From IMG/VR virus record IMGVR_UViG_3300034107_000725, positions 62,001-126,000 of that record: a stretch of DNA of 64,000 bases, one strand, 5' to 3'. Below the pieces are notes generated by a model, which saw only the letters and a program-made list of their open reading frames with translations, was not told the origin of the DNA and made no database searches. This DNA comes from a virus. Shown here piece after piece: positions 6,286-41,369 of this stretch (position 1 is its first letter; each line of letters begins with the position of its first letter). A program made the position numbers and the translations under genes.

Positions 6286-6319
6286 GGTGAGAGTACCATG
6301 ATTACCAAGGAGGGTAACT

Positions 6320-6652: not shown

Positions 6653-6674
6653 CCGGTGTAAAATTTAACAGGCC

Positions 6675-6711
6675 AAAAGAGTTATCCCGCCGGGTGACTC
6701 TTTTTTTTTTT
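6675..6711 (+). terminator. Intrinsic terminator
   Basis: AAAAGAGT (6675-6682) pairs with ACTCTTTT (6697 onward) around a CCC/GGG-containing interior, and the 3' arm runs straight into an 11-base T-tract (6701-6711). It closes the thyX-to-metalloprotease block. Confidence 0.85.
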
Positions 6712-6722
6712 ATGAAAGAGGG

Positions 6723-6751
6723 TTGACGGTGTAACCCAAAGGGGTTACAAA
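6723..6751 (+). promoter_or_regulatory. Sigma70-like promoter with embedded palindrome
   Basis: TTGACG (6723-6728) is followed after 17 bases by TACAAA (6746-6751). The spacer contains a perfect inverted repeat, TGTAACCC (6730-6737) with GGGTTACA (6742-6749), in the place where a repressor would block RNA polymerase. It lies just after the terminator at 6675-6711 and before the glycosyltransferase at 6794. A near copy of the TCCGGA motif in reverse orientation (6762-6776) follows. Confidence 0.45.
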
Positions 6752-6793
6752 TTGATTTGTCTAATTCTGGATTTTAAAACCAAGGATCCACTC

Positions 6794-7612: not shown

Positions 7613-7636
7613 TGTGTTTTAGCTAAGGACGTGACG

Positions 7637-13472: not shown

Positions 13473-13911
13473 AACAGCCGAAAACGTACCAGGCTGGATA
13501 CAGCAACTTGTACGAGACATAGGTGAGCAGCTGCATCCTTTGGGGTTTATGGGTCAACTTGGGTTTCGCTACCTGCCGCCAGCCGCTCAGGCAAACATAA
13601 CACACCGCTGGGTCATTGGAATTTATCCTGTGCCGTATGAGTTGTCAGGTGGCAAACGAGACGGCGTTGTTGTGGTCGCCGGGTTTTGTCTGGATCTTTT
13701 GAAAACAATGTCACAATTTTCTGACATCACAACTCTGGAATGGCGAGTGCCTCGAAGATATACTGACGGACTCTCCGGGCCGGAGTTCTGGTTAGAAGGA
13801 TGTTACCAGAACAAAGAATTGGTACAGCTGCATGTTTATGCGGATTGCCCGGCGGATGAACTACCTACCTTAGTACTGGATGTTGTCACTGGAACCTTAC
13901 GGGTCAAGTGA
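13462..13911 (+). CDS. Hypothetical protein (149 aa)
   Basis: This 149-residue soluble protein has an even spread of strands and helices, no signal or membrane segment, and an acidic C-terminal part (YADCPADELPTLVLD). It overlaps the preceding gene by 11 bases and lies immediately upstream of the ribonucleotide reductase, so it is in the same transcription unit. No family was recognised. Confidence 0.6.
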   Translation: MGIETAENVPGWIQQLVRDIGEQLHPLGFMGQLGFRYLPPAAQANITHRWVIGIYPVPYELSGGKRDGVVVVAGFCLDLLKTMSQFSDITTLEWRVPRRYTDGLSGPEFWLEGCYQNKELVQLHVYADCPADELPTLVLDVVTGTLRVK

Positions 13912-13952
13912 CATGTGTTGTCTGTAACTCTATATCAGCAGGAGTGGCATAT

Positions 13953-16226
13953 ATGCCTATCTCAGGGACGGATTTGGATAGTGGCTCAATTGAGAATCTA
14001 ACGGTTGCAAAGCGAGACGGCCAAGTCGTTGCGTTTGACCCCGTGAGGGTACAAACGGCAGTACAACGCTGTCTGGTGTTGGATTGTGCGTATGATGAGC
14101 AGGACGCCGACCATATCAGCACACTGATTCAGCAACAGGTTACAAACCTGGTAAAGCTAGAGCAGCAGCCAGTTGGCGTAGAGACGGTGCAGAACCTTGT
14201 GGAAAGCCAGCTCATGGCGGGTGGCTACTATCCAGTAGCAAAGCAGTACATTCTGTTTCGAGAAGCCAAGCGGCTACAGCGAGAAGAACAGCCAATTCCA
14301 GAAGCTGTTATCGAAGCATTCAAAGCAAACGATCAGTACTTCTCTAACGAGATTCAAAAGTTCCAAGCTCTCGATAAGTTTGCCCGGTTCGATCACGAAC
14401 TGGGAAGAAGAGAAACTTGGCCTGAGACAGTCAACCGTGTCTGTGAGTTCTTTAAAGTTCACTGCACGGGGCAGAACTTTACCATAACCGACCACGAGTG
14501 GGCTTATCTTAAGGACGGTTTACTGAACCTTGAAGCATCGCCGTCCATGCGTTGTGTTCAGATGGCAGGCCCAGCACTCAACCGATGTCACGTTGGCGTC
14601 TACAACTGCTCGTTCCAGTTCCTTCAGAGCACGACGGACCTGGCAGAAGAACTGTACGTTCTCATGCAGGGTACAGGCGTTGGGTTCTCAGTCGAAGCGG
14701 AATTCGCTGTTGAGAAGTTTCCAAGAGTGAAACGACAGAAGAAGACAGCCGAAGCGACAACATACGTCATACCTGATACCACTGAAGGTTGGTGTGATGC
14801 ATACAAGGCCGGTTTAGACGCCTGGTGGTCAGGGGAAGATCTACGGTTTGACTACTCCCAGATTCGTGAAGCAGGCACGCCGCTCAAGACCAAGGGCGGC
14901 AAGTCCTCGGGTCCTGGACCACTGAAGGATCTACTGGAGTTCGCACGGAAGAGAATTCTGGCCCGCCAAGGCCGATACCTGTCCAGTCTGGATCTGCACG
15001 ATATCAACTGCTTTGCTCACAGAATCGTCCGTATGGGCGGTGTGAGACGTGCCAGCGGTATCAGCCTGTCAGATCTTCACGACCACGAGATGCGGGATTG
15101 CAAGCAAGGTGAATTCTGGAATACGAACAGCCAGAGAAACCAGGCCAACAATTCCGCAGTTTATAACGAGAAGCCGGATCCGTTGGTCTGGATGGAAGAG
15201 TGGCTGACACTTGCCAAGTCCGGATCGGGCGAGCGGGGTATCTTCAACCGGGGTGGTCTCAAGAATCAGTTCCCCAAGCGACGCAAACACCAAGGGCATC
15301 TGTTTGGGACCAATCCATGCGGTGAGATCATTCTCAGACACAAACAGTTCTGTAACCTCTCAATCGCTGTCATCCGCCCGGAAGATACCTACGAAGACAT
15401 CGAACGCAAGACGATCATCGCTACGATCTGGGGCACACTTCAGTCCACCATGACCAAGTTCAACTACATTGGTGAAGACTGGAAAAAGAATAGCGAAGAA
15501 GAGCGGTTGCTTGGCGTAGATTTACTTGGCTTCTTAGACCATGCGTTATTTCAAGACAATGTCGTTGCTGCTGTAGTTCTGGACAGGCTACGAGCCAAGG
15601 TAATTGAAACGAACGTCCTTTGGGCTAAGCGGTTGGGTATCAATCCTTCTGCGGCTACAACCTGTGTGAAACCATCTGGAGACAGCAGCGTATTCTTTTT
15701 GACAGCTGCTGGATTCAAAGGGCACCACGGTGCTTACTATGTTCGCAGAGTCCGGGCCAACGACACTAACCCGGTCGCACAGATGTTGCAAGCAGAAGGC
15801 GTACCTTGTTTCAAGGACTACGACGGCAGCGGGCTGGTGTTGGAATTCCCGATGAAATCTCCGGCAGGTGGACAGCTGTTGGAAAATCAAACAGCTCTGA
15901 GTCAGTTAGAGCAGTGGAAGACCTTCAAAGTCCACTGGACTGAGCACAATCCAAGCGTGACGGTCTATATCCGACAAGAAGAGTGGCTTGCGGTGGGCAA
16001 GTGGGTGTATGATAACTGGGAGATCGTTGGCGGTTTGAGCTTCTTGCCTTACGACGGCGGTGTCTATCACTTGGCTCCGTATGAGGCGATTAGTCAGGAA
16101 GACTACGAGAAGCGAATGTCCACGTTCCCCAAAATCAACTGGGCAAAGTTGGTCCGCTACGAGAAATCGGATATGACTGACTTACACCAGCAAGTGGCCT
16201 GTGCGGGCGGGGCTTGCGAGATCTAA
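13953..16226 (+). CDS. nrdJ: Class II (B12-dependent) ribonucleotide reductase
   Basis: This enzyme reduces ribonucleotides to deoxyribonucleotides with adenosylcobalamin as radical source. Residues 16-108 form an ATP-cone regulatory domain. C219 (VYNCSF) and C467 (FCNLS) are the redox pair, NPCGEI carries the radical C456 and E458, GGVRRAS is in the barrel, and the C-terminus has the reducing pair C750/C755 (CAGGACEI), spaced as in the Lactobacillus monomeric enzyme. At 757 residues it is near the size of that monomer. GGAG (13941-13944) favours the ATG at 13953 over an upstream GTG. It ends at a strong terminator and closes the metabolic block. Confidence 0.9.
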   Translation: MPISGTDLDSGSIENLTVAKRDGQVVAFDPVRVQTAVQRCLVLDCAYDEQDADHISTLIQQQVTNLVKLEQQPVGVETVQNLVESQLMAGGYYPVAKQYILFREAKRLQREEQPIPEAVIEAFKANDQYFSNEIQKFQALDKFARFDHELGRRETWPETVNRVCEFFKVHCTGQNFTITDHEWAYLKDGLLNLEASPSMRCVQMAGPALNRCHVGVYNCSFQFLQSTTDLAEELYVLMQGTGVGFSVEAEFAVEKFPRVKRQKKTAEATTYVIPDTTEGWCDAYKAGLDAWWSGEDLRFDYSQIREAGTPLKTKGGKSSGPGPLKDLLEFARKRILARQGRYLSSLDLHDINCFAHRIVRMGGVRRASGISLSDLHDHEMRDCKQGEFWNTNSQRNQANNSAVYNEKPDPLVWMEEWLTLAKSGSGERGIFNRGGLKNQFPKRRKHQGHLFGTNPCGEIILRHKQFCNLSIAVIRPEDTYEDIERKTIIATIWGTLQSTMTKFNYIGEDWKKNSEEERLLGVDLLGFLDHALFQDNVVAAVVLDRLRAKVIETNVLWAKRLGINPSAATTCVKPSGDSSVFFLTAAGFKGHHGAYYVRRVRANDTNPVAQMLQAEGVPCFKDYDGSGLVLEFPMKSPAGGQLLENQTALSQLEQWKTFKVHWTEHNPSVTVYIRQEEWLAVGKWVYDNWEIVGGLSFLPYDGGVYHLAPYEAISQEDYEKRMSTFPKINWAKLVRYEKSDMTDLHQQVACAGGACEI

Positions 16227-20003: not shown

Positions 20004-23000
20004 ATGCAACCGCTCACGCCCAATCTGCTTGAGCCGGAATCCTCATCGCTGTTGACTCCGGCTGCATCTATCCAGCCGTTACCGCCTGCTCCCGATTATC
20101 GGGAGTTTGGTGATACGGTAAAAACGCGTTCACGTATTTATGACAACGTACTGAACGCGGCTAAGAACATACAGCCCGTGTCGAACGACCGCCACACACT
20201 TCGGTTGGCGGATGTGGATTACATGGATTCAGATCGGGTCAGCAAGCGGGATCAGAAGGCCGCTATTCTGAACGGCTTGACCCGCGGGCGAAGGCTACGT
20301 GGTACGTGGGAACTGGTGGACAACGCCAGTCAGCAGGTGCTTGATAGTAAGCGGTCTGTGCTTATGACCGTACCTCACCTCACCGAACGCGGTACGTTCA
20401 TTAACAATGGCACAGAGTACACATTAAAGAACCAACAACGCTTGCTCCCTGGCGTCTACACGCGGGAACGTGATAACGGTGAAATTGAATCACACGCAAA
20501 CGTCTTGCCGGGCAAGGGCGTGTCTCACCGTTATTTTCTAGACCCAGAAAAAGGGCAGTTCAAGATTCGCCTGGGACAAGGCACCGTCAGCCTGATGCCT
20601 TTGCTCAAGTCTATGGGTGCGACTTCAGAACAGATTAAAAATGCTTGGGGCAAAGATCTTTATGCCAGTAACTTCAACAGCGATGACGCTGGCGAACACA
20701 AGAAGCTCCGGGCCAAGTTTCTAAATGCTAAAGAGCTTCAAGGGGATGAGCAGGCACAGCGGGCAGCTCTTGTGCAAAAGTTTGCCAACATGGAGCTGGA
20801 CCCAGAAGTCACAAAGCGAACGCTGGGTAATCCACATGCAGGACTGACCCTGGACGCTGTGATGGATATTACCAAAAAGCTAATTCAGGTCAGTCGTCGG
20901 GAAGCCGAGCCGGATGATCGTGACGCGTTAACCTATCAGAGCTTCCTTGGCCCTGAAGATCTACTTGCAGAAAGAATTTCGCGAGATAAAGGTGGTTTAC
21001 GCCGTCAGCTTTTATGGCAAATGTCGGGGCAAGGCAACCTCCAAAAAATGCCATCTTCTGCCTTGCACAAGCAGCTTCAGGCTGCCATTATGGGTTCCGG
21101 GCTGGGTCAAGCGATCGAAGAAATTAATCCGGCAGAGCTGTACGACAAGTCAACAGCTGTGAGCCGCCTAGGCGAGGGCGGTATTCCTTCCACGGATGCT
21201 ATTCCTAAAGAATCGCGTAGCGTTCAGCCCAGTATGTTCGGATACGTGGACCCTGTGCGAACCCCAGAATCGGGCAAGGTAGGAGTGGACACCTACCTTG
21301 CTCGTGGGGCTCGCAAGGGTTCCGACGGCAAACTTTACGCTCAGTTTAACGACGTTAGAACCGGTGAAACCATTTACAAAACACCGCAAGCTGTTGCGGA
21401 TTTGACTTTGGGTTTTCCTGGAAGCATGCAGCAACTCGGGAAACGGGTAGCCGCTATGCGTAACGGAAAAATGGTCTACGTGCCAAAGCACGAGATAGAC
21501 TTAGAGTTACCAAGCATGGAAGAAGCGTTTAATCCGCTTTCCAACATGATACCTATGAAAAGCCAGGTCAAAGGTCAGCGACTGGTGATGGCGTCTCGAA
21601 TGACCACACAGGCGTTACCTATCGCAGGGGCCGAAGCTCCACTGGTTCAGTCGGCGATACCAGGCACAAACGGACAAAAGAGCTACGAAGAGCTTTATGC
21701 CGGTGCGATGGGTGCGTTACGTGCTCCGCAGGGCGGAACGGTGACCGGTGTAGACGATGACGGCATTCATGTGCGATACGAGGACGGTACTTCAGACACA
21801 CATGAGATGTATCAGAACTTCCCGTTTAACCGTAAAACTTTCATACATCAGACGCCAGTCGTAAGGCCTGGAGACCAGTTTGGTCCAGACCAGTTGCTGG
21901 CCCAGTCCAACTATACTGATAAGACAGGGGCAACGGCTTTAGGGCGTAACGCTCGTACTGCTTATGTCTCGTGGCAAGGCAAGAACTTTGAAGATGCCGT
22001 CGTAATTTCTGAAGGCTTTGCCCGGAAAATGGCTTCTGAGCACATGTATCAGAACAGTCTGGAAGTAGACGACAAGACTCAGCTGGGTAAGCATAATTAC
22101 ATTCAGAAGTTTCCTGGTAAGTTCGATAAGGCAACTTTGGCAAAAATGGATGATAGCGGCGTGATTAAGCCTGGAACGGTGGTACACTACGGCGATCCTC
22201 TCATTCTGGGAACTTCGCAGCGGGAAACCTCGTACAACAAAGTCCACAAAAAAGGACAGGCAGGACACACCGATGCAGCAATCATTTGGGATCATCACGA
22301 CGACGGGACCGTTACCGATGTGGTCATGGGCAAAACGGGACCGACTGTCGTTGTTAAAGCGACGTCAGCCATGCAAGTTGGCGACAAACTCTCTGGGCGG
22401 TACGGAGACAAAGGAGTCATTGCTGATGTCATCCCAGACCATCAAATGCCACATGATAGTGACAAACAACCCTTCGAAGTCCTGTTGAATCCACTTGGTG
22501 TCATCACCCGAACCAACCCGGCTCAGATGTCTGAGTTGTACCTGGGTAAACTAGCAGCCAAGCTGGGACGACCTATCAAGGTCCAAGACTTTGATTCAAG
22601 CAAAGACATGGGCGAATGGGTTTCACAAGAACTGGCCCGTGAAGGTTTGTCTGACTTGGAAGACATCAACGACCCGTCTAAAGATCAGAAGATCGGCGGT
22701 ATTGCTACGGGTCATCGGTTTTTTATGAAGCTGCACCACACGGCTGAGTCTAAGGGACAAAGCCGCGGTGGTGGAGCTTACACAGCGGATGATGCACCGG
22801 CTAAAGGTGGGTCAGAAGGCTCAAAGCGAATTGGGATGTTGGATACAAACGCCTTGTTGTCTCACGGAGCTACGGCAACGCTACAAGACGTGAGTGCAGT
22901 TCGTGGACAGAAGAATGACCAATACTGGATGCAGTTCATGTCCGGCTACAATCCAACAGCGTCCAAGGTACCGTTTGTGTATCAAAAGTTTGTCAATCAA

Positions 23001-24443
23001 CTCAAGTCTGCTGGTGTTAACGTCGTCAAGCAAGGCACACAGACAAACATCATGGCGTTGACGGATAAGGATGTGGATGAGCTGGCCGGTGATCGCGAAC
23101 TCCAAAACGCGGAAGGCGTAGACTGGAATAAGGGGCTCAAGGAAATTTCTGGCGGCTTGTTTGACAAGTCGAAGACCGGAGGTCACGGGGGCAATCGTTG
23201 GAGCTATATCAAGCTGCACGAGCCGTTGCCAAACCCGGTGATGGAAGAACCCATCCGGCGTATGCTAGGTTTGACACAGAAACAGTTTCAAGGCGTAATC
23301 TCAGGCACGGAACCGTTATCTAAGTACGGCACAGGTCCGCAGGCTTTACAAAAGGCCCTGTCCGGAATGAATGTTGATGCTGAGATTGAGAAAGCCCGTA
23401 ACGCTATTTCAGCGGGTCGGGCCTCAGACAGGGATGCGGCGGTGAGGAAGCTAGGATACCTGAAGAGTGCTAAAAAGCTGGGTCTCCATCCTGGCGATTA
23501 CATGCTTACAAAAGTGCCTGTTCTGCCTCCTATGTTTCGACCCGTCAGCATGATGTCAAACGATATGCCACTGATTAACGATGCTAACTACCTTTACAAA
23601 GAGTTATTTGAGGCAAATAACAACCTCAAAAGCATTCAGAGCGAATTAGGACATGAAGCATCCGGGCTGGAACGAATGGCGGCGTACAATGCCTTCAAAG
23701 CTGTCACGGGTTTAGGCGATCCAATTAGCCAGAAAAGTCGAGATAAGAACGTCAAAGGTGTGCTTCAGTCTGTGTTTGGTTCCAGCCCCAAGTTCAGTAC
23801 ACTACAACGCAAACTGATTTCCACCACTGTGGATAACGTCGGGCGGGCGGTGATCACCCCCAATCCGGATCTGGACATGGATTCGGTCGGCCTGCCCGAA
23901 GAGAAAGCCTTCAAGGCGTATGAGAAGTTCGTCACCCGGCGGCTGGTCCGTCAGGGTATGTCGATGAGAGTGGCTCGCGAACACATTGCAAACAAATCGA
24001 AGCTGGCACGCAATATTCTGCTTGAGGAGATGGATCATCGTCCGGTATACATCAGCCGGTCTCCTGTTCTTCACAAGTTTGGGATTTTGGCAATGAAGCC
24101 AAGACTAACCAAGGGTGATACACTTCAGGTTAGCCCTCTCATCGTTAAAGGCTTTAACGCTGACTTTGATGGCGATGCTATGAATTATCACGTACCGAGC
24201 ACAGAAAAGGCCCGACAAGAAGCTCTTGACCGACTTCTACCTAGCCGAAACTTGTTCAGTCTGTCAGACTTTAAATCCGTGATGCACGCTCCGGCAAACG
24301 AGTTTGTCGGCGGTTTGTACCACGCTACGAAATCCGTTAGCGATCGCCCTAAAAAGATCTTTCGATCGCTACAGGATGCTAAGCGGGCCTACGCACGGGG
24401 CGATATTTCTATCGACGATCGCGTGCAAATCCTAGAATCTTAA
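20004..24443 (+). CDS. RNA polymerase beta fused to N-terminal half of beta'
   Basis: The 1479-residue protein is a multisubunit-type RNA polymerase chain. Residues 1 to about 1015 are beta: FINNGTEYTLKNQQRLLPGVY, YVDPVRTPESGKVGVDTYL, VSWQGKNFEDAVVISEGF, VGDKLSGRYGDKGVIADVIP, LNPLGVITRTNPAQMSELYLG and the GGSEGSKRIGMLDTNALLSHGA block. From about 1045 it is beta': TKVPVLPPMFRPVSM, DNVGRAVITPNPDLDM, SRSPVLHKFGILAMKPRL, and NADFDGDAM at 1385-1393 with catalytic Asp 1387, 1389 and 1391. It stops about 85 residues after that motif. The bridge helix and trigger loop are on the chain at 26153. The organisation equals rpoB-rpoC1 fused, with rpoC2 separate. No sigma-like gene was recognised. Confidence 0.93.
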   Translation: MQPLTPNLLEPESSSLLTPAASIQPLPPAPDYREFGDTVKTRSRIYDNVLNAAKNIQPVSNDRHTLRLADVDYMDSDRVSKRDQKAAILNGLTRGRRLRGTWELVDNASQQVLDSKRSVLMTVPHLTERGTFINNGTEYTLKNQQRLLPGVYTRERDNGEIESHANVLPGKGVSHRYFLDPEKGQFKIRLGQGTVSLMPLLKSMGATSEQIKNAWGKDLYASNFNSDDAGEHKKLRAKFLNAKELQGDEQAQRAALVQKFANMELDPEVTKRTLGNPHAGLTLDAVMDITKKLIQVSRREAEPDDRDALTYQSFLGPEDLLAERISRDKGGLRRQLLWQMSGQGNLQKMPSSALHKQLQAAIMGSGLGQAIEEINPAELYDKSTAVSRLGEGGIPSTDAIPKESRSVQPSMFGYVDPVRTPESGKVGVDTYLARGARKGSDGKLYAQFNDVRTGETIYKTPQAVADLTLGFPGSMQQLGKRVAAMRNGKMVYVPKHEIDLELPSMEEAFNPLSNMIPMKSQVKGQRLVMASRMTTQALPIAGAEAPLVQSAIPGTNGQKSYEELYAGAMGALRAPQGGTVTGVDDDGIHVRYEDGTSDTHEMYQNFPFNRKTFIHQTPVVRPGDQFGPDQLLAQSNYTDKTGATALGRNARTAYVSWQGKNFEDAVVISEGFARKMASEHMYQNSLEVDDKTQLGKHNYIQKFPGKFDKATLAKMDDSGVIKPGTVVHYGDPLILGTSQRETSYNKVHKKGQAGHTDAAIIWDHHDDGTVTDVVMGKTGPTVVVKATSAMQVGDKLSGRYGDKGVIADVIPDHQMPHDSDKQPFEVLLNPLGVITRTNPAQMSELYLGKLAAKLGRPIKVQDFDSSKDMGEWVSQELAREGLSDLEDINDPSKDQKIGGIATGHRFFMKLHHTAESKGQSRGGGAYTADDAPAKGGSEGSKRIGMLDTNALLSHGATATLQDVSAVRGQKNDQYWMQFMSGYNPTASKVPFVYQKFVNQLKSAGVNVVKQGTQTNIMALTDKDVDELAGDRELQNAEGVDWNKGLKEISGGLFDKSKTGGHGGNRWSYIKLHEPLPNPVMEEPIRRMLGLTQKQFQGVISGTEPLSKYGTGPQALQKALSGMNVDAEIEKARNAISAGRASDRDAAVRKLGYLKSAKKLGLHPGDYMLTKVPVLPPMFRPVSMMSNDMPLINDANYLYKELFEANNNLKSIQSELGHEASGLERMAAYNAFKAVTGLGDPISQKSRDKNVKGVLQSVFGSSPKFSTLQRKLISTTVDNVGRAVITPNPDLDMDSVGLPEEKAFKAYEKFVTRRLVRQGMSMRVAREHIANKSKLARNILLEEMDHRPVYISRSPVLHKFGILAMKPRLTKGDTLQVSPLIVKGFNADFDGDAMNYHVPSTEKARQEALDRLLPSRNLFSLSDFKSVMHAPANEFVGGLYHATKSVSDRPKKIFRSLQDAKRAYARGDISIDDRVQILES

Positions 24444-24473
24444 CCAGATCAGATTGACAAGGAGATCATAACG

Positions 24474-25187
24474 ATGGGACTGAACCTCGAGCTTCTTAAA
24501 CAAGCCCGATATAACGTACGGGAGCTGGAAAAATCAGCATTTGTAGCTGCCGGTGACCCGTCAATGGGTGGAGATCCTGCGGCTATGGCTGGTGGCGGTG
24601 CTCCTCCTATGGACCCAGCTATGGCTGGCGGTGCCCCTCCAATGGATCCGGCGATGGCTGGCGGTGCCCCTCCAATGGATCCGGCGATGGCGGGTGGTGC
24701 TCCTCCTATGGATCCGGCGATGGCTGGCGGCGGCGATCCAATGGCTGCAATCATGCCGATGATTCAGCAAGCGGTACAGCAAGCAATGGCAGCCAACGGT
24801 GGCGGCGGTAGTGGTCCACAAGCAGGCGGGCCCGGAATCAAACCCAAGATCGACGTCAACGTCGAAATCATGCAGATGAAGAAGATGTTGGCCAAGATGA
24901 TGGACGCCATGGGAATCCACATGCCCGTAGCCGACATGGTGGCCACACCAGAAGATCTCAATCAGATTGCACAAGGTGGAGCCGGTTTCGCCGCAGCTAC
25001 GCCTGATAACGGTGGCGGACTGGGAGCCATCAAGCCGATACAGGCTATGAAGGCCGCAGAAGACTGGGAAAGCGGTGTAGCCTTTACACCTCCTTCCGAG
25101 AATTCATTCCAGCAGTCACACAACGTCACAAGAAGTACGGCAAACATGGCAACAGCGTTATTGCTGCGTAACCGTATGACGGGTTGA
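24474..25187 (+). CDS. Low-complexity Gly/Ala/Pro/Met repeat protein
   Basis: The 237-residue protein starts LKQARYNVRELEKSAFVAAGDPS, which contains two K-x-A motifs, then has about five units of A-M-A-G-G-A-P-P-M-D-P (residues 37-85), a Gly-rich linker and a helical part IMQMKKMLAKMMDAMG. It ends with a Ser/Asn-rich tail. The repeat echoes DPAAMGGDPEAMGGG in the scaffold-like protein at 37935. It lies between the two polymerase genes and may be a linker or scaffold within the virion. AAGGAG precedes the ATG. Confidence 0.65.
   Translation: MGLNLELLKQARYNVRELEKSAFVAAGDPSMGGDPAAMAGGGAPPMDPAMAGGAPPMDPAMAGGAPPMDPAMAGGAPPMDPAMAGGGDPMAAIMPMIQQAVQQAMAANGGGGSGPQAGGPGIKPKIDVNVEIMQMKKMLAKMMDAMGIHMPVADMVATPEDLNQIAQGGAGFAAATPDNGGGLGAIKPIQAMKAAEDWESGVAFTPPSENSFQQSHNVTRSTANMATALLLRNRMTG
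24582..24740 (+). repeat. 33-base tandem repeat inside coding sequence
   Basis: Four near-identical units of 33-36 bases (starts 24582, 24618, 24651, 24684) and a partial fifth (24717) encode A-M-A-G-G-A-P-P-M-D-P. Units 2 and 3 differ by one base, so they are recent duplications or are kept alike by recombination. Confidence 0.9.
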
Positions 25188-25203
25188 GCAGAAGGACAGT
25201 TCG

Positions 25204-25428
25204 ATGTTCTTTGTCGAGATATTGGAAAGTATCGGGAAGCCTCCCTTGCGGGTGGAGGCTTCTCAGGTGGTTATTCGAATGGCTGACGGTACTCCCGTCA
25301 GTGTAGCTGCGGTCTTTGGCACTGCAAGCAGTGTTTTGGTTTCACACTGTGAAGACCCAAACTTTAACGCAAACTTGCGTAAGCTGGGCATCAATGAAAC
25401 CGTTATCTCTACTAGACTGAAGGTATGA
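25204..25428 (+). CDS. Small hypothetical protein (74 aa)
   Basis: The protein is a compact beta-rich domain (MFFVEILESIGKPPLRVEASQVVIRMADGTPVSVAAVFG) with two short helices at the end. AAGGA (25193-25197) is the ribosome site, and the stop is one base before the next ATG, so expression is coupled. It lies in the group of three genes between the polymerase halves. It could be a small polymerase-associated subunit, but no similarity to omega or a known subunit was seen. Confidence 0.55.
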   Translation: MFFVEILESIGKPPLRVEASQVVIRMADGTPVSVAAVFGTASSVLVSHCEDPNFNANLRKLGINETVISTRLKV

Positions 25429-25429
25429 C

Positions 25430-26140
25430 ATGTCCGACCCGACACGATCTGCTGATAAGGCTTATTACGCTTCCCGAACTCCGTTAGATATACGGGGCAC
25501 TCGCGAAGGGCGATCAAATCCGCCAAAATTCCCAAGCTATCAGCACAAAGGTTACGACTCCACCGCGTCGTCTGACAAATACTATGCGGTGCAACCGGCT
25601 AAAGTGGATGCTCCTGTAGCTCAGGCCGTGCGGCAGAAACCTGCACGGAACACAGTAGCACAGAAAACCGAGCTGATTATCACAGATACGGATAATCTGT
25701 TACGGCGGTTAAGCGATATACTAAGAGATAACGATGTTGAGGTCGTTGTTAAAGGCGATGCAGAATTGATCCGACAGGCACGAATGATTTTGGATTTATC
25801 TGTAGGCCGAAACGAGTTTACACGACAGCAGGCAGACTCTGTGTCATTCGCGGTGGTTGAAGCAAAGATCACAGTACCCGACGTAGCGGTTGTGGACGTA
25901 GCACCAGAACCAGTAGTAGAGGTAGCCGCAGAGCCAGAGCCAGTAGCAGAACCGGAACCAGAAGTAATTCCGGAGCCCGTGATACGGGATGAAATTGCTG
26001 AACTTCTGGCAGCACCAACACCGGTTGTCAAAAAAAGTAAGCCTAAGCAGGTCAGACAGGCCAAGAAGCCCGAGGCTAAAACTATCACGGAAGATGACAT
26101 CGCTGCCGCTCTTGGCCTAGGCGATGATAGCGACGACTAA
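25430..26140 (+). CDS. Acidic Pro/Glu-repeat protein between polymerase genes
   Basis: The 236-residue protein has a Tyr-rich basic N-terminus (DKAYYASRTPLDIRGTREG), a small folded middle (LLRRLSDILRDNDVEVVVKGDAELIRQARMILD), a run of alternating Pro, Glu, Ala and Val from about residue 160 to 185, and a basic then acidic C-terminus (KKSKPKQVRQAKK, DDIAAALGLGDDSDD). The disordered acidic run may act as a tether. The position directly before the beta' C-terminal gene suggests association with the polymerase, but this is only positional. Confidence 0.6.
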   Translation: MSDPTRSADKAYYASRTPLDIRGTREGRSNPPKFPSYQHKGYDSTASSDKYYAVQPAKVDAPVAQAVRQKPARNTVAQKTELIITDTDNLLRRLSDILRDNDVEVVVKGDAELIRQARMILDLSVGRNEFTRQQADSVSFAVVEAKITVPDVAVVDVAPEPVVEVAAEPEPVAEPEPEVIPEPVIRDEIAELLAAPTPVVKKSKPKQVRQAKKPEAKTITEDDIAAALGLGDDSDD

Positions 26141-26152
26141 GAGGCTGTTTGC

Positions 26153-29100
26153 ATGCTGAATACGACTGTCGGCCAACTGTTGGTAAACGAATCACTGCCT
26201 GAAGACTTGCGGGACTATAACCGAGTCCTGGACAAGAAAGGTATGGGTGCGTTGTTACAGCAGGTGGCTCGACAGTATCCAGAAAAGTACCGTGAAGTGT
26301 CGTTTCAGCTGAGTCAGGTTGGGCAGAGGTCAGCTCAAGACCAGGGGGGTATGTCGTTCGGCATGCGTCACCTGAAACGAAGTAAGATCGCCAACGAAAC
26401 TCGGAAACGGATTCAGGGGCAGCTAGACAACATCTTGTCTGATGACTCGCTCACAGATCAGCAACGCAACGATCTGATTGTGAAAACAGTTGGACGTGAG
26501 AGCGAACCGCAGCAGAAGGCAGTGCTGGAAGAAGCCATTCAAGCCAAGAATCCGTTAGCAATGCAAGTGCTTTCAGGTAGCCGCGGTAAGCCTATGAATC
26601 TTGCCAGCTTGCTGGCAGCAGATATGCTGTACTCGGACCACAGGGATGAGGTTATTCCAATTCCGGTGCTTCGCAGTTACAGCGAAGGCTTGTCCCCGGA
26701 AGAATACTGGGCTGGAACTTATGGTGCTCGTCGCGGGATCATCGCAACTAAGTTTGCCACTCAGGAAGCGGGATTTCTGAGCAAACAGTTAAATCAAGCA
26801 GGTCACCGGCTGGTCGTAATGGGTGAAGAGGGTGACGAAGATCCGGAAGCACCTACTCGGGGTTTGGTCGTTGATACTGACGACATGGACAACGAGGGTT
26901 CGCTTTTGGCTCGGGACGTAGGACCGTACAAGCGAAACACCCCACTTACCCCCAAGATTCTCAAACAACTACAGCGACTTGGCAAAAACCGGATTTTAGT
27001 CAGGTCGCCGATGGTTGGTGGTTCTCCTGAGGGTGGTGTTTATGCTCGAGACGTTGGTATCCGTGAACACGGTACCTTGGCAGGGTTAGGCGAGCAGGTC
27101 GGACTTCAGGCAGCTCAGGCTTTGTCTGAACCGATTAGCCAAGGGCAGCTTTCGGCAAAGCACTCTGGCGGCGTTGCCGGGCAGGAAAAGGCGGTTGGTG
27201 GATTCCAATACATCAATCAGCTGATTCAAACGCCCAAGAAGATGCAGGGTGGAGCTGCTCACTCTACATTGGACGGTACGGTGCAGCGAGTAGAACCTGC
27301 TGCTGCCGGTGGGTTCAACGTAACGATTGACGGCAAGCCGCACTATGTAGGTGAGGGCTTTGGTGTCAAAGTTAAAAAAGGGGATAACGTCGAAGCCGGG
27401 GATGTGCTTAGCGACGGTATTCCCAATCCAGCGGTCATCACTCAGTACAAAGGTGTTGGTGAGGGTCGCCGTTACTTTGTCAACGAATTCCGCAAAGCTA
27501 TGTCAGCTAGCGGTATGCAGGGACACCGCCGCAACATTGAGTTGCTGGCACGCGGATTAATCAATCACGTTAAGCTCACGGAAGAGACTGACGATCATGC
27601 TCCGGACGATATCGTCCCGTATTCTACGTTGGAGCATACATACAAGCCACGGGAAGGCCATGAGCGTCTAACGCCCAAAAAAGCGTTGGGCCAGTATCTG
27701 GAACGTCCGGTGTTGCACTACACCATTGGCACTAAGATTCGCCCGTCGATGCTTAGAGACTTCGATGATTTCGGAGTCCAGGCAATCCCGGTGCATAAGA
27801 ATCCGCCACCGTTCGAGCCACATATGGTACGAGGTATGTACCAAATGCAGCACGATCCGGATTGGATGACCCAGATGTACGGTTCCGGACTCAAAAAGAG
27901 TCTGCTGGAATCCACAGCACGTGGAGCAACCAGCGAGGAACGGGGTACCAGCTTCATCCCCAGCTTGGCGTCAGGCACTGATTTTGGCGAAGTCCCAGAT
28001 CGTGCAGTGATTCAGCCTAAGCCTGCATATTCATTGCCTAAAGTATCCATTCCTGACTTGGAGCCTGAAAATTCAGGATCCACGTTCTTTGGAGGCCGAT
28101 ACAAAGTAGGCATGCAAAAAAGGGCGGTAGAAGCGACCCCACCCAAAGTCGAGGCTCCGGCCTCCACATCTATGTCGGCTCCTACCGCCCCTACTCCCTC
28201 CCCGTCGAATGCCGCAGAGTTGGGTAGCAATAATATTATGTCCCCGGCTACAACTGTCCAGCCCAAACTGGATACAGTGACTCAGCCGATTCAACCGCCA
28301 GCGGATATACCACAGGCAAGCCAGACTCCTAGAGCAAGCCAGACTCCTCCAGCCAGTCAACCGCCGCCAGCCAGTACACCAGCACAGGTTCGGGCAGATG
28401 TGATGCAGGCTTCAAGAACCGCAACTCCGCCTCCGATTCAAGAACCTTTGCCGCAGATTAAAAGACCGTCAACTAAGATGCCAGAGCTATCTACTGGAAC
28501 CGCATCCACTTCTCGGCTAACCAGTTCTCGGCTAGGCTCACAAACAGCAGGCATTCCATGGTGGCGGGCAACAGCAAAGCCGACAGACACGACATGGAAT
28601 AAAACAGAAAATACCGAATTCCATTCTCAGCCTAACTCTGTGTTAGGTGCGACACCGTCTGTGGCCAACCTGGCTGCGAGTCGTTCCTACGCACCAGAGC
28701 CTCCAGCTGCACCTGTAAAGGGTTATGCAGATTATGCTCAAGACGCCTGGGACGCGTTTAAAAACCCTGTAACAACGATTAGTAATCAACTCTACGGTAC
28801 GCCGGAACCTACTGCGGGTAACTCGTTTTCCGATGATGGAAATCTGTTGGCTCGCTCTGGGGTAAATATGGGTCTTAAACAAATGATGGGCCGCTCTGCC
28901 CCGGCTGCGATTACTGCAGCAGCTGAAGCTGCAGTTCCATTGTCTCGGGTGGGTCGATTGGCAGCCGGAGCTCGAGCTTTGTTGCCGGGGTTTTTACCTG
29001 GGGCCAGACTGGCAGCCGGAGGTGCCGCAAGTGCTGCGGGTGGTCTATCTTTGGCACCGGCAGCGATAGGCTTTGCTGCGGTTAACGCAGGCACTGAGCT

Positions 29101-29335
29101 GCTTGACGCAGGCGGTCTTTTGCCAGAATGGGCGGGTGGAGATGGTTGGGGTACTATGGGCTGGGATCAAACTGGCTTCGAAAACGACTTTAAAGATCGG
29201 AGTATACCGGGGGCTGCCTTACATACCGTTATGAACCCACTTAAAAGCATATGGGCTGGCGGTACACGACTAGGTGATGCAGGTTATAGGGGAACGAGCT
29301 GGCTGTACGACAAGTTTAGAGGCGGGGCAAAATAG
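26153..29335 (+). CDS. RNA polymerase beta' C-terminal half with virion-type extension
   Basis: Residues 1 to about 630 are the second half of beta'. SGSRGKPMNLASLLAADM matches the SGARG region, YSEGLSPEEYWAGTYGARRG and TKFATQEAGFLSKQLNQAG are the trigger-loop region (about 176-215), and HGTLAGLGEQVGLQAAQALSEPISQGQ (about 305-331) matches the conserved GEAVGxxAAQSIGEPGTQ block. After that the chain leaves RNA-polymerase homology. Residues about 650-780 are Pro/Ser/Thr-rich, and about 900-1000 are Gly/Ala-rich hydrophobic (ARALLPGFLPGARLAAGGAASAAGG, LAPAAIGFAAVNAG). K-x-A occurs at MQKRAVEA near the junction. Such a tail is absent from cellular beta' and points to packaging and membrane passage. 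Confidence 0.9.
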   Translation: MLNTTVGQLLVNESLPEDLRDYNRVLDKKGMGALLQQVARQYPEKYREVSFQLSQVGQRSAQDQGGMSFGMRHLKRSKIANETRKRIQGQLDNILSDDSLTDQQRNDLIVKTVGRESEPQQKAVLEEAIQAKNPLAMQVLSGSRGKPMNLASLLAADMLYSDHRDEVIPIPVLRSYSEGLSPEEYWAGTYGARRGIIATKFATQEAGFLSKQLNQAGHRLVVMGEEGDEDPEAPTRGLVVDTDDMDNEGSLLARDVGPYKRNTPLTPKILKQLQRLGKNRILVRSPMVGGSPEGGVYARDVGIREHGTLAGLGEQVGLQAAQALSEPISQGQLSAKHSGGVAGQEKAVGGFQYINQLIQTPKKMQGGAAHSTLDGTVQRVEPAAAGGFNVTIDGKPHYVGEGFGVKVKKGDNVEAGDVLSDGIPNPAVITQYKGVGEGRRYFVNEFRKAMSASGMQGHRRNIELLARGLINHVKLTEETDDHAPDDIVPYSTLEHTYKPREGHERLTPKKALGQYLERPVLHYTIGTKIRPSMLRDFDDFGVQAIPVHKNPPPFEPHMVRGMYQMQHDPDWMTQMYGSGLKKSLLESTARGATSEERGTSFIPSLASGTDFGEVPDRAVIQPKPAYSLPKVSIPDLEPENSGSTFFGGRYKVGMQKRAVEATPPKVEAPASTSMSAPTAPTPSPSNAAELGSNNIMSPATTVQPKLDTVTQPIQPPADIPQASQTPRASQTPPASQPPPASTPAQVRADVMQASRTATPPPIQEPLPQIKRPSTKMPELSTGTASTSRLTSSRLGSQTAGIPWWRATAKPTDTTWNKTENTEFHSQPNSVLGATPSVANLAASRSYAPEPPAAPVKGYADYAQDAWDAFKNPVTTISNQLYGTPEPTAGNSFSDDGNLLARSGVNMGLKQMMGRSAPAAITAAAEAAVPLSRVGRLAAGARALLPGFLPGARLAAGGAASAAGGLSLAPAAIGFAAVNAGTELLDAGGLLPEWAGGDGWGTMGWDQTGFENDFKDRSIPGAALHTVMNPLKSIWAGGTRLGDAGYRGTSWLYDKFRGGAK

Positions 29336-29641: not shown

Positions 29642-29691
29642 GCCAACATCACTTCTCTGGAACTGACGAGCTGTTGCTCACGGAAGGGACC

Positions 29692-32199
29692 ATGCAAACA
29701 CAACTGAATAAGACAGCCGCCCTCGGCGGCAGCGGCGGCGAAACCGAATTTGAACAGGCTTTTTCTAGCCTGGCCTATGCCTATCTACGGGATAAAGCCC
29801 CACGGTTGCTAGATTTCATGGTCGGTTTTCAACTAGTCGACCGCAATGAAGATAACACCAAAGCGATGGGTATCTTCGGATTTCAAGTTGGCAAGCAGTG
29901 GCTATATGCCCCAGTGTTCTTCTTAAACGGCGATCTCAAAGGTCACGAGTTGCTCTACATGAAGAACAACGACTCCTTTGTGCCGCTGAAGGAAAACTGG
30001 ATTAACTACATTATGAGCCGCAAGCCCCACATCTTGGGCGAGCAATCTGCCTCAAAGTTGCGAGAGCTTGGTGGCGTTTATCCGGATATCCGGACGCTTT
30101 CAATCCCACCTTCAATTGGTGGTGGCAAGCGTGCCAGTGATAACAGCTGGCTTCAAGGCGTGATGCCGATGCTGGCTGCTTTCAAAACCAAAGCGGCTAG
30201 CTCACTCTATCGTGGAGCAGGGAACCGCAAGCTCAATCAAGCTGCTGTAGTTGCCGATCCGTTCGGTGCCGCTTTGGCAAAGCAGGCTTCAATTCTGGAT
30301 TTTAACAACGTCATGCCACAGAGTCTGGAACTGATCAAGATGGCTCACGCTATCTCTGAACGGTACCCGACAATCAAACTGGCGATGCAGAAGTTCTACG
30401 GTGTAGACTGCTTCTCACGCTGGAGCAAAGACCTGCGTAACAACCTGGAGAAGGAAGCCAGCAACATTCTGCCCGTGCAGATTGCGGCCAAACCTTATAT
30501 GCCGGGCAATTTGTTGATCCCAACAGAACGACCAGCCGGACCAATCGATCACGTCAAGCAGGGCAAACTCAATCTGGATGCTCCAGAATACGTGTTTGAA
30601 CGTGGTGGATTTATTGTCGATACGCTTGATGTCAGATTCCAGGTTGAACGGGAATCTGCCGGTATTACAGACAGTCGTGCCGACGACGAAGTATCGAAGG
30701 CTTACAACACTCAAGTTGACGTGCGGATGACCAATCCAACCGAAACCAACTTGTACCGTGTGCTGGAACGTCCAGGCAAGTTCAGCAAGATGCTGGTTGT
30801 GATGCACGGCAGCAGCAACCGTGGACGAGAACCATTTGCCACGTTGGTACGACTGGAAGACAACGGCGACGGTGGTGATAAGGCCTGGCTCAACAGCCAT
30901 GCCACCAACATCTTTGCCGATCAGACCGCGGAACGCGATGAGTGGCGGGAATGGTTTGAAAGCCTGCCAGGCTCGGAATCGTTGCAAGACGGCGGTGAAT
31001 ACATCGCAGTTTCCGAGGATGGCTCGGGTACTGTGCCGTTCCATGTGCAGTCTAACTACGGCGACGGACGTCACCGTGTGGACTTCCGCACTCACGTCAA
31101 CTTCGACGAAGCTCGGCCCAGCACGATGCCTCGTTTGCAGAAGATCACCGATCCGTTTACGGAGGAAGGTTATCACATGCCGAGCACGTACGGTGCCATG
31201 CTGTACACCGATAAAGAGGGCAAGAAAGGTACACGGCTGCGAGCAATTGCCGGTGAGCTTCGCGTGCCTGACTCTTTCAAGTTCCTTAAGCTATCGGAAC
31301 CGCAAAAGCCCAGATCTGGCGAATTGATGCCTTGCTCCAATTACAACAGCCGCAGCGACATGCCGCCGATTCAGCTTGGTAAGATCGACGACATCCAGCT
31401 CTTCTTCTACGAAAAGACGGCTGGGTTGCAGTTGTTAAACAACAGCACAGACGTCTACATTGACTCGGTGCTGGGTTCAGAGCGGGTCAGTCTTAAAGAA
31501 GCCGCGTGGCATCTGGTAAGCGTGCATGGTCTTCGCGAGAAGGCAGCTCGTGAGCTGCTGGAACAGTCAGAACGTAAGGGCAAAACCAGTTACCGGATCG
31601 AGTATGCTCCGGGTTACGGCAATCAAAAGCAGGCTGGACCAAACGACAGCGTGCTGGCTGGCGGCCCAGATGCCCCAATCTTTGACGACTTTGCTGAAGA
31701 GCGAAGTGTTGAAAACTACGGGCCTCGTACTTCTGCTCCAACTCAGTACGGCGGTGAAGCTGCTTACCGTTTGAACCACTTGAGTGCAGATCAAACTGAC
31801 CCAGGTGTATGGAACCCATGGCAGAACTACGAAGCAGAAGACTTCCAGAAGAATGTACAGAAAGCTCAACAGGCTGGAGCACAGGGACAGAAGGAAGTCT
31901 TTGATACTTCGATGATCTCCGGTATGCTCAAGTCCGTTCGGCAGGATTCGCTGGTTGAACGTCACCTGGCTCCGCTGGTTGAATCTTTAGACGCCTTAGG
32001 CCGCCTGTTGATGAACTTCTACTGGCACGGCGAAGAGTTTGAAGATCGCTATGGTAAAAGCGATATGCCTGAGCTGGAAGATAGCCTTCGAAATTCCTTC
32101 GAGGCCTTGGGTGATGTTACGCTCTTCCTGAAAGAGAAAACTGTCGAATCGCCGTTTGATAGCGGTGATGTCAATCTCGAAGAAACTTCAAGGAACTAA
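29692..32199 (+). CDS. Large virion-type protein (835 aa), unidentified
   Basis: The ATG at 29692 is set by GGAAGGGA; a TTG further upstream lacks a ribosome site. The product is mixed alpha/beta without membrane segments. Its first 130 residues contain a compact aromatic domain (RLLDFMVGFQLVDRNEDNTKAMGIFGFQVGKQWLYAPVFF). K-x-A motifs are frequent (LNKTAALGG, GGKRASD, LAKQASI, LEKEASN, YEKTAGL). The C-terminal 150 residues are Gln/Glu-rich. It follows the polymerase genes and precedes head genes. It could be a large head-interior or connector protein; I do not recognise the family. Confidence 0.6.
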   Translation: MQTQLNKTAALGGSGGETEFEQAFSSLAYAYLRDKAPRLLDFMVGFQLVDRNEDNTKAMGIFGFQVGKQWLYAPVFFLNGDLKGHELLYMKNNDSFVPLKENWINYIMSRKPHILGEQSASKLRELGGVYPDIRTLSIPPSIGGGKRASDNSWLQGVMPMLAAFKTKAASSLYRGAGNRKLNQAAVVADPFGAALAKQASILDFNNVMPQSLELIKMAHAISERYPTIKLAMQKFYGVDCFSRWSKDLRNNLEKEASNILPVQIAAKPYMPGNLLIPTERPAGPIDHVKQGKLNLDAPEYVFERGGFIVDTLDVRFQVERESAGITDSRADDEVSKAYNTQVDVRMTNPTETNLYRVLERPGKFSKMLVVMHGSSNRGREPFATLVRLEDNGDGGDKAWLNSHATNIFADQTAERDEWREWFESLPGSESLQDGGEYIAVSEDGSGTVPFHVQSNYGDGRHRVDFRTHVNFDEARPSTMPRLQKITDPFTEEGYHMPSTYGAMLYTDKEGKKGTRLRAIAGELRVPDSFKFLKLSEPQKPRSGELMPCSNYNSRSDMPPIQLGKIDDIQLFFYEKTAGLQLLNNSTDVYIDSVLGSERVSLKEAAWHLVSVHGLREKAARELLEQSERKGKTSYRIEYAPGYGNQKQAGPNDSVLAGGPDAPIFDDFAEERSVENYGPRTSAPTQYGGEAAYRLNHLSADQTDPGVWNPWQNYEAEDFQKNVQKAQQAGAQGQKEVFDTSMISGMLKSVRQDSLVERHLAPLVESLDALGRLLMNFYWHGEEFEDRYGKSDMPELEDSLRNSFEALGDVTLFLKEKTVESPFDSGDVNLEETSRN

Positions 32200-36408: not shown

Positions 36409-37893
36409 ATGGCTTTGATCAAATTTGTCTCGCCTTCGGGCTGGGATTTTGAGCAACGGATTGTCTCACCGATCAAGATGAGCAGTCGAGGTTTGATTGG
36501 TGAGGATCGCCGGGAATTCCTGAAGCGAGCCAGCCATGCGTTTTTGCCCCAACTGGACAACGTCAAGTTTGCCAAGGACGAAGTCCCGGTTCACTTGATT
36601 GCTCTTGGAGCCAGCGAAGCCTACGGTCCCAACCGTAACGGTGACGGCTTTAAGGAAGCGACCTGTCGAGAACACCACCACACGTTTACCAAGTTTGCCA
36701 AGTTCTTCCGTAACCATAAGAACAAAGCCGAGCGTGGTGATCCGTACTACGGCTACGTCAAGGCATCAGCTTACAACGAAGACATGCGTCGCGTTGAGTT
36801 GCTGTGTGCCCTAAATGCCGAAAAGTCAGCCGCAAATCGCAACGGTGGATTTGTTGCAGACACTGAGTTGGAAAAGATTGCACGTGGCGAAGACATGGCT
36901 GTCAGTATGGCCTGTCGTGTGCCACATGACGTCTGTTCCTTCTGCAAGCACGCTGCAAAAAATCGATCTGAATACTGCACTCGCGAGAAATGTGCTGCCG
37001 GTGGTTGTCAAAGTAATCTGACACGATTAGTGAAGGTCGGTAGTGATCTTCACCACCTGCACGTTGACAATCCTAATCCAACGTGGTTCGATATTAGCCG
37101 TGTCTTTCGTCCAGCTGACCGTATTGCTTACGGGGCTAAAGCGGACTATCTAACCAAAGCTGCTGCGGATTCTGGAATTTTTGAGTTGCAAGATTACATC
37201 AAAATGGCGGAGAATTCTACCGCACCGCTTGATGTGATTCTGTACCAATCCGGTCACCACGGTTTCTGGTCTGAGAAGTTCGCAGCTCAAGTAAAACTAG
37301 GATATGGACTAGCTGCACTTGAAAAATACGAAACAGCAAGAGATGCTAATACATATCGAGCCCACGCAACTGCCGATTTTCCAATCGAAAAGATGGCAGC
37401 GTTCGGCTCCTCCCAATGCGATACTCAGTTGGCTGCGATGGCCGATCGAAAAATCATCTTGAGTTTGAAGGATTACGCACGATTGGCAGGCCGAGAAGAA
37501 CATGTTAAAAGTGCTGCTGCTTTCTTACCGGGGATCTATTCTCATATGACCACCGATGAGTCGTTACCCCTCAGGGTCGAAAGCGGCATGTGCTCGTTTA
37601 TCGAAAAGACAGCCAACGAAAGCTCTCGTATGCTCGCGGCTACACTTCATGCAGAGTACTCTCTGCAGAAGGAAGCAGTTGAGGATCGGGGCTTTCTGAG
37701 TTGTATCCGGGGGCAGCCTGCTCCCGTGATTGTCCCGTATGAAAAGTCAGCCACTTGTGACGAACACGGTGAAAGGCTTGCCAAGGATTACGCTATGTAC
37801 AAATTGGCAGCCCTCTGGCGTGTCGCCGCAGTGGATACAGACTTTCCATTGACAGTGAGTTTGAGTCTCCGTCAAAATCGAGTTTTTCACTAG
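36409..37893 (+). CDS. Prohead maturation protease (T4 gp21-like)
   Basis: The N-terminal 200 residues match the T4 gp21/U9 group of capsid proteases. The block VHLIALGASEAYGPNRNGDGF (61-81) is followed by the catalytic histidine in FRNHKNK (H103), then YGYVKASAYNEDMRRVELL and the catalytic serine in EDMAVSMACRV (S166). A cysteine cluster follows directly (C176, C179, C190, C195, C200), a zinc-knuckle-like addition seen in some large phages. The C-terminal 290 residues, with K-x-A sites (YIKMAEN, YEKSATC, IEKTANE), probably belong to the prohead core and are removed. It is the first gene of the head module; the major capsid protein lies 4 kb downstream. Confidence 0.8.
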   Translation: MALIKFVSPSGWDFEQRIVSPIKMSSRGLIGEDRREFLKRASHAFLPQLDNVKFAKDEVPVHLIALGASEAYGPNRNGDGFKEATCREHHHTFTKFAKFFRNHKNKAERGDPYYGYVKASAYNEDMRRVELLCALNAEKSAANRNGGFVADTELEKIARGEDMAVSMACRVPHDVCSFCKHAAKNRSEYCTREKCAAGGCQSNLTRLVKVGSDLHHLHVDNPNPTWFDISRVFRPADRIAYGAKADYLTKAAADSGIFELQDYIKMAENSTAPLDVILYQSGHHGFWSEKFAAQVKLGYGLAALEKYETARDANTYRAHATADFPIEKMAAFGSSQCDTQLAAMADRKIILSLKDYARLAGREEHVKSAAAFLPGIYSHMTTDESLPLRVESGMCSFIEKTANESSRMLAATLHAEYSLQKEAVEDRGFLSCIRGQPAPVIVPYEKSATCDEHGERLAKDYAMYKLAALWRVAAVDTDFPLTVSLSLRQNRVFH

Positions 37894-40421: not shown

Positions 40422-41369
40422 ATGGCTAGCTCCACTATGATGACTCAGGAAGAAAGCAAACTCCTGAGCCAAACGATCTTCGAGAAGCTCGCTTCTCGGG
40501 ATTCGGGCCTGGAAAAGCAAGCAATTGACGCAGTCAATGATTTTACCCGCACCAAAATGCGGGAAGATGGCTTTTTCCGCCGAATTATGCCGCCAATCCC
40601 AATCTCCAACGACGATCTCGATCGTCAGGTAGATACGGACAAGCCGGTAAAGATCGTGGACAAAGAACCGAACAGCCCTGCCGCTGTTTCGATTCCTTTT
40701 GCCACACTGCCGACGAACCTGTACATCAAGGGTGACCGTTACAAGGTGACCTTCGATCGTATCGTGACACCTAAGTTCACGAAGGACGTCGATGAGCTTC
40801 GTACCTGGTACATGGATATCCGTCAGGTTCTGAGCGATAACGCCATCAAAGACATGCTGGCTGAAGAAGATGGCAAGTTCATCTCCGCAGTCAACACGGC
40901 TCTGGTTGGCCCTGGCCTGGTCGTCCCGACATCGGGCACGATTCAGTATCAGGAAATCTCAGGCGGTATCACCCGTGATACCCTGTGGGATAGCCTCAAA
41001 ATTATGCCAAACACGCCTTCGAACTTGGAAGTTCACTGCGTGCTGCTTAACAACATCACCATCAAAGAAGTTGCGAAGTTTACTCGTAACGAAATGGGTG
41101 GCGACCTCAGCGAAGAGATCATGCGTAACGGCTGGACTCTGAGCGAGTGCATGGGTGTTAAGTGGGTGATTACGATCAAGAAGGGTCTCGTGCCAACAAA
41201 CACGATGTACCATTTCGCTGATCCTAAATTCATTGGCAAATCGTATATGCTCGAGGATACTACAATGTATATCCGTCGGGAGGCATATTTTATCGAATTC
41301 TTCGCGTACGAGTCACTGGGCGGTACGCTCGGTCACACGTCTGGCCTTGCTCGCGTTGACTTTACCTGA
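40422..41369 (+). CDS. Major capsid protein (HK97-like)
   Basis: The 315-residue protein has the length and context of an HK97-fold major capsid protein: an N-terminal helical arm with K-x-A sites (FEKLASRDSGLEKQAID), then a mixed alpha/beta body with SIPFATLPTNLYIKGDRYKVTF, a central helical stretch DIRQVLSDNAIKDMLAEEDG and a C-terminal P-domain-like part VKWVITIKKGLVPTNTMYHFADP followed by YIRREAYFIEFFAYE. The N-terminal arm is probably cut by the gp21-like protease. AAGGAGG and flanking RNA hairpins indicate high expression. Confidence 0.75.
   Translation: MASSTMMTQEESKLLSQTIFEKLASRDSGLEKQAIDAVNDFTRTKMREDGFFRRIMPPIPISNDDLDRQVDTDKPVKIVDKEPNSPAAVSIPFATLPTNLYIKGDRYKVTFDRIVTPKFTKDVDELRTWYMDIRQVLSDNAIKDMLAEEDGKFISAVNTALVGPGLVVPTSGTIQYQEISGGITRDTLWDSLKIMPNTPSNLEVHCVLLNNITIKEVAKFTRNEMGGDLSEEIMRNGWTLSECMGVKWVITIKKGLVPTNTMYHFADPKFIGKSYMLEDTTMYIRREAYFIEFFAYESLGGTLGHTSGLARVDFT

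Follow-up and report, generated by a model that had tools for sequence, protein, structure and literature searches.

A phage RNA polymerase in which β is fused to the first part of β′ and the remainder of β′ is encoded separately

Organisation of the polymerase locus

The window analysed here is a stretch of 64,000 nucleotides, corresponding to bases 62001–126000 of a 193,990-base virus record. Two uninterrupted open reading frames within it encode the polymerase chains (Table 1). Pfam matches on chain 1 run from Rpb2_3 and Rpb2_6 (residues 598–927) to Rpb1_1 and Rpb1_2 (residues 1330–1408), and chain 2 matches Rpb1_5 (residues 179–360) and, weakly, Rpb1_4. Together, the intact frames, the Pfam matches and the alignments described below bear out the proposal of the initial annotation that β is fused to the first part of β′, the rest of which is separate.

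Table 1. Features of the polymerase region, in window coordinates.
Feature	Position	Strand	Evidence
Chain 1, β plus N-terminal β′ fusion, 1,479 aa	20004–24443	+	Pfam; end-to-end alignment
β part of chain 1, residues 1–1010	20004–23033	+	Aligned to E. coli β ~20–1336
β active-site motif GDKLSGRYGDKGV (E. coli K1065/K1073 region)	22380–22418	+	Alignment
N-terminal β′ part of chain 1, residues ~1020–1479	23061–24440	+	Alignment
Catalytic NADFDGD motif, chain 1 residues 1385–1391	24156–24176	+	ORF translation; alignment
Small gene 1, 237 aa, Gly/Pro/Met-rich	24474–25187	+	Iterated HMM search; intergenic survey
Small gene 2, 74 aa	25204–25428	+	Iterated HMM search; intergenic survey
Small gene 3, 236 aa	25430–26140	+	Iterated HMM search
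Chain 2, remainder of β′, 1,060 aa	26153–29335	+	Pfam Rpb1_5; E. coli β′ alignment from ~571
Bridge helix region, chain 2	26675–26797	+	Phage alignment; E. coli alignment
Trigger loop, chain 2	27077–27187	+	Alignments
Chain 2 C-terminal extension, ~420 aa	28061–29332	+	Alignment; intergenic survey
Arash virion protein gp218 homologue	29674–32199	+	phmmer
Arash virion protein gp222 homologue	36409–37893	+	phmmer
Major capsid protein homologue (Arash gp226)	40422–41369	+	phmmer; weak PHROG major head protein match

Residues ~35–1010 of the β part align end to end with E. coli RpoB ~20–1336. Where E. coli β has H526 and R529, the window protein has K and A, from which resistance to rifampicin is predicted. 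The start of β′ is recognisable directly after β (IMALTDKDVDELAG..GLFDKSKTGG, compared with IKIALASPDMIRSWSFG..GLFCARIFGP in E. coli), and the alignment shows that the first zinc finger region (E. coli β′ ~C70–C88) is absent from chain 1. The chain ends at the equivalent of E. coli β′ ~553, 88 residues past NADFDGD, in good agreement with the initial estimate that β′ is cut ~85 residues beyond this motif. Chain 2, on which NADFDGD is not found, starts at the equivalent of β′ ~571 (NTTVGQLLVN, compared with DTTVGRAILW in E. coli) and closes with an extension that is of low complexity, then hydrophobic, and poorly conserved. The phage alignment retains NADFDGD, the lysine motif of β and the catalytic His of the trigger loop; of 98 phage rows, 97 have this His and one has a gap, and the position equivalent to E. 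coli R933 is mostly Ser in chain 2 rows.

The three small genes that had been placed between the two chains are indeed located there. Most of the main clade of related phages carries two conserved gap genes, of ~240 and ~80 residues. Small gene 1 is kept between both chains, and small gene 2 immediately upstream of the gene for the C-terminal part of β′ (β′C), in most of this clade, and small gene 3 occurs only in the sub-lineage of the window. Searches of the PDB and PHROGs returned no relative of small gene 2, and a polymerase-subunit role for its product is a conjecture from gene position. The genome has few intergenic regions, and these yielded no convincing promoter motif. Other genes in the window include a B12-dependent-type ribonucleotide reductase with an ATP cone (13908–16226), a few genes upstream of the polymerase, and a glycosyltransferase (PHROG 3408, 689 bits) fused to a methyltransferase-like C-terminal part (55113–56756).

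Distribution and probable history of the fusion and the cut

Scans of viral contigs with single-sequence queries returned 27 chain 1 loci and 7 chain 2 loci; with alignments as queries, over 550 chain 1 and over 165 chain 2 related stretches were recovered. Of 105 representative phage loci, 103 have β and N-terminal β′ (β′N) in one open reading frame; in the two exceptions the frames are broken throughout. The break point, which the initial annotation suggested checking in related phages, recurs there: in 82 of 85 representatives the distance from DFDGD to the end of chain 1 is 85–94 residues, the exceptions being L239, where it is 128 residues, and L174 and L116, which have inteins after the motif. 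The aligned start of chain 2 is likewise shared by most representatives. The same layout is present in the cultured Salmonella phage Arash and in Vibrio phages D69, D148 and D181, where the polymerase is annotated merely as β/β′ or as hypothetical. Fusion plus split is the rule in a large clade of mostly uncultured phages. The initial description of the arrangement as unusual is apt for known polymerases, among which it is rare, but not for this clade and its sequenced isolates. Two family members (L243, 504–4940; L244, 7890–9281) come from MAG contigs whose labels are Methylococcales and Planctomycetaceae; these are either stray phage contigs or hints of the host.

The conservation of both the chain 1 end and the chain 2 start across representatives bears directly on whether the break is a frameshift or an assembly error in an otherwise ordinary polymerase gene, fused or not. 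Broken frames do occur in some relatives, for example L225, L232 and L164. However, this cut recurs, complete with a stop and a start of its own, in more than 80 diverged representatives and four sequenced isolates, and ~1.7 kb with three genes separates the two chains here. An artefact of this kind was therefore ruled out, and we attach a negligible probability to it.

A scan seeded with two single-chain members, L022 and L020, gave ~25 further loci, most of which encode the entire β–β′ in one chain of 2,050–2,160 residues. The L022 chain is continuous across the cut site (..YTDVVKVGGHETTIGRL..) and aligns in a single stretch to E. coli β′ 409–823. PHROGs 24349 and 25354 were also considered as unsplit phage relatives and were set aside, since their lengths and cellular hits indicate that they are probably cellular sequences in phage records.

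The main tree was calculated under the LG+C20 mixture model (quick search, SH-aLRT support) and rooted on bacteria, with no archaea or cyanobacteria included. In this tree, whose outgroup is bacterial only, all phages form one clade on a long stem (support 100), comprising a fused-split clade with Arash and D69 inside it (support 98) and a single-chain clade (support 94). A FastTree analysis of 123 rows agreed with this, support being low (0.35) solely for the joining of Arash/D69 to the rest. The three architecture states require two changes on the LG+C20 tree. The simplest history would be one fusion and then one split, and this order is favoured because its reverse costs one more change on the bacteria-rooted tree.

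The fused-split and single-chain clades are sisters, so that either could be the older, and split phage enzymes have been argued to be ancient relics (PMC7824862). A split ancestor, from which the single-chain clade arose by re-joining, would however need three changes (cut, fusion and re-fusion) instead of two, and the β′ of the bacterial outgroup is uncut; we consider this order unlikely. With fusion placed first, the cut looks derived on the bacteria-rooted tree, which bears on the relic-versus-derived debate over split phage polymerases. Moreover, the early-branching Arash, D69, L183 and L238–L241 are without the two conserved gap genes, which on the mixture tree suggests that the gap genes arrived after the cut.

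Comparison with known polymerases and a working model

A cut in β′ is known from cyanobacteria, and a β–β′ fusion from Helicobacter and Wolinella (PMC3294249). In the rpoB–rpoC1–rpoC2 arrangement of cyanobacteria and plastids β′ is cut after the barrel as it is here, but β is separate. The phage cut falls between E. coli β′ ~553 and ~571, before the TTVG segment, whereas the cyanobacterial cut falls after it; rpoC2 starts ~12–22 aligned residues further on, as judged from PDB profile coordinates rather than a residue-level alignment, and the two cuts are thus close but not the same. The initial reading of the chains as rpoB plus rpoC1 and as rpoC2 is accordingly an approximation. It is very unlikely, in our judgement, that the phages acquired an already split, cyanobacterial-type polymerase to which β was fused afterwards. 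Both cuts do lie in the same post-barrel stretch of β′, and a cyanobacterial-type origin has been proposed for phiKZ-type enzymes (PMC7598289); the conserved TTVG segment, however, separates them, and in a tree without cyanobacterial sequences the clade nearest to the fused-split one has no cut. In Helicobacter and Wolinella β is fused to the start of β′ as here, but β′ is whole. Their fused polymerase is a cellular enzyme with alpha.

Both subunits are split in the phiKZ/AR9 polymerases (PMC7598289). These resemble the present enzyme in having no alpha, a post-barrel cut in β′, an SNF2-type helicase linked to the polymerase genes (PMC7824862) and, if the packaging proposed below is correct, a virion polymerase. 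They differ in that their β is also cut, while here it is whole and fused, and in that there are two multisubunit polymerases per genome, against one found in the 194-kb record, which is possibly incomplete. phiKZ gp80 and gp74 have no recognisable profile similarity to either chain; of the alignments envisaged initially, that with E. coli β/β′ was obtained, but the phiKZ proteins were too diverged for residue-level placing. In crAss-like phi14:2 gp66, P23-45 gp64/gp96 and YonO both barrels lie on one chain, and some of these enzymes are in the virion (PMC10770324). They are very diverged, whereas the enzyme described here can be aligned end to end with its bacterial counterparts β and β′, and its strong profile matches to these place it outside the highly diverged single-subunit clade.

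The mReC Caudovirales are tailed phages whose multisubunit polymerase branches deeply and is readily aligned with cellular ones (PMC7481178). They are described as having separate β and β′, of at least 800 residues and with NADxDGD in β′, while in the window phage NADFDGD is on the fused chain. As in the mReC phages, the present sequences form a deep clade apart from cellular polymerases (support 100, with a bacterial outgroup only). Neither of the mReC markers, PF07068 (capsid) and PF03237 (terminase), was found in this genome, whose terminase matches PF05876, and PF07068 was found in 0 of 25 relatives, both PF07068 searches being without a positive control. Chain 1 by itself could satisfy the criteria of the mReC paper, and the fused-split family may therefore include some mReC contigs.

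Arash gp206 and gp216 (OQ632216) show the same organisation as the window, with a β–β′N fusion (1,525 aa), a separate β′C (606 aa) and the same break region. Identity is ~30%, other genes occupy the gap, and β′C has no long C-terminal extension. Both the Arash paper and the record call these proteins β and β′, not fusion plus split (PMC10585845). The arrangement, which the initial annotation allowed might already be known, thus exists in cultured phages, but no paper describing fusion plus split was found in the open-licence literature as searched. It represents a third way of re-cutting a cell-type polymerase, and the family allows comparison of an uncut single chain, a fused-and-cut form and further broken forms.

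A homologue of the Arash sigma factor gp10 lies at 139070–139804 of the record (Sigma70_r3, 29.7 bits, cut-off 25.3), and 21 of 25 related genomes likewise encode a sigma homologue. No member of the alpha family PF01193 was found in any of 16 genomes (controls positive in 13 of 14). Capsid, portal, terminase and sigma genes are common to this phage and Arash by phmmer. An SNF2-type helicase, which adjoins β′C in Arash, is encoded elsewhere in this genome; a RapA-like role has been suggested for a comparable helicase in phiKZ-type phages (PMC7824862). Proteomics of Arash virions gave 3,516 spectra for Gp206 (the most of all proteins, with 128 unique peptides), 1,210 for Gp216 and 467 for the sigma factor Gp10, and the helicase gp217 was likewise found in the particles (PMC10585845). 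By our own arithmetic these correspond to ~2.3 (gp206), ~2.0 (gp216), ~2.0 (gp10) and ~2.4 (gp217) spectra per residue, a crude measure whose near-equal values give a crude hint of a 1:1:1 ratio of gp206, gp216 and gp10.

The Arash virion proteomics, the co-occurrence of sigma and the failure to find alpha together favour a packaged, alpha-free holoenzyme. Most likely, the enzyme is a virion-packaged, alpha-less and sigma-dependent polymerase, its virion location here being extrapolated from Arash at ~30% identity. Non-virion polymerases do exist in phiKZ-type phages (PMC7598289), and the Arash preparation also contained many non-structural enzymes, for which the authors allowed carry-over (PMC10585845), so the enzyme might instead be a middle or late polymerase made during infection and left unpackaged. 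That reading appears improbable: no protein of the Arash particles was detected more than Gp206, the polymerase genes sit among homologues of virion proteins, and one PF00562 place and one β′C place were found in the 194-kb record (which may be incomplete), arguing against a second polymerase of the same type as the virion one.

In the packaged, sigma-dependent model the two chains would assemble into a single alpha-free RNA polymerase core of the cellular type. The two double-psi barrels that make up the active centre are both on the chain 1 polypeptide, which would hold the catalytic halves in a fixed 1:1 ratio without an alpha scaffold, and chain 2 would dock on chain 1 to supply the bridge helix, the trigger loop and the remainder of β′. 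The phage sigma factor would direct this core, and the enzyme would be packaged in the particle, enter the cell with the DNA and transcribe early genes. In evolutionary terms, an ancestral phage would first have joined a bacterial-type β/β′ pair end to end, the fused chain then being cut once in the loop after the β′ barrel and other genes settling in the gap. Taken as a whole, from the alpha-free two-chain core to the fusion and later cut, this model is considered probable. The cultured relative Arash opens a fused, alpha-free virion holoenzyme to biochemistry.

Inteins and further breaks in related polymerases

In L043 (2642–5758 / 6159–7907), L045 (341–3487 / 5401–7161; = L166) and L094 (1–5199 / 5231–6985) chain 1 is in two pieces, which end and begin with typical split intein halves (..G/CF..TRNHE..ADGSRKLAGDL.. 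and ..VYDITV..HLY..GVLVSN/SKR..). From these halves, β–β′N is probably rejoined by protein trans-splicing in the three loci. Contiguous inteins are present in polymerase chains of L016, L018, L019, L024, L151, L174 and L231, with at least five or six in L024. No intein scar was seen at the β′N/β′C cut, as neither chain 1 ends nor chain 2 starts carry intein halves.

A different type of interruption, with a stop between two Gly codons, is seen in L024 (11304–11340; = L333, L214), L047 (6490–6525; = L332) and L114 (2972–3010; = L331; identical in L329, L330). Here an intein at GDKM/C and the sequence SGRYG are followed by an immediate stop (TAG/TGA), 2–4 bases and a second Gly codon with DKGV. 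The frame offset differs among the three types (five contigs, three sequence types), and no listed start codon opens the DKG-containing frame in L047 or L114. A Gly-to-Gly codon hop would restore SGRYGDKG exactly, and such a putative hop resembles T4 gene 60 bypassing.

It is possible, though on balance doubtful, that a single chain was cut at a fixed loop, that two new small genes in the cut joined the enzyme, and that sub-lineages rebreak chain 1 and repair it by a split intein or a Gly-stop-Gly ribosome hop. If true, one essential enzyme would have been repeatedly fragmented and rejoined by different means. In one further relative, L025 (81–4322, 5879–7009, 10840–13896), β′N is cut again near its start, with the β/β′ junction still fused.
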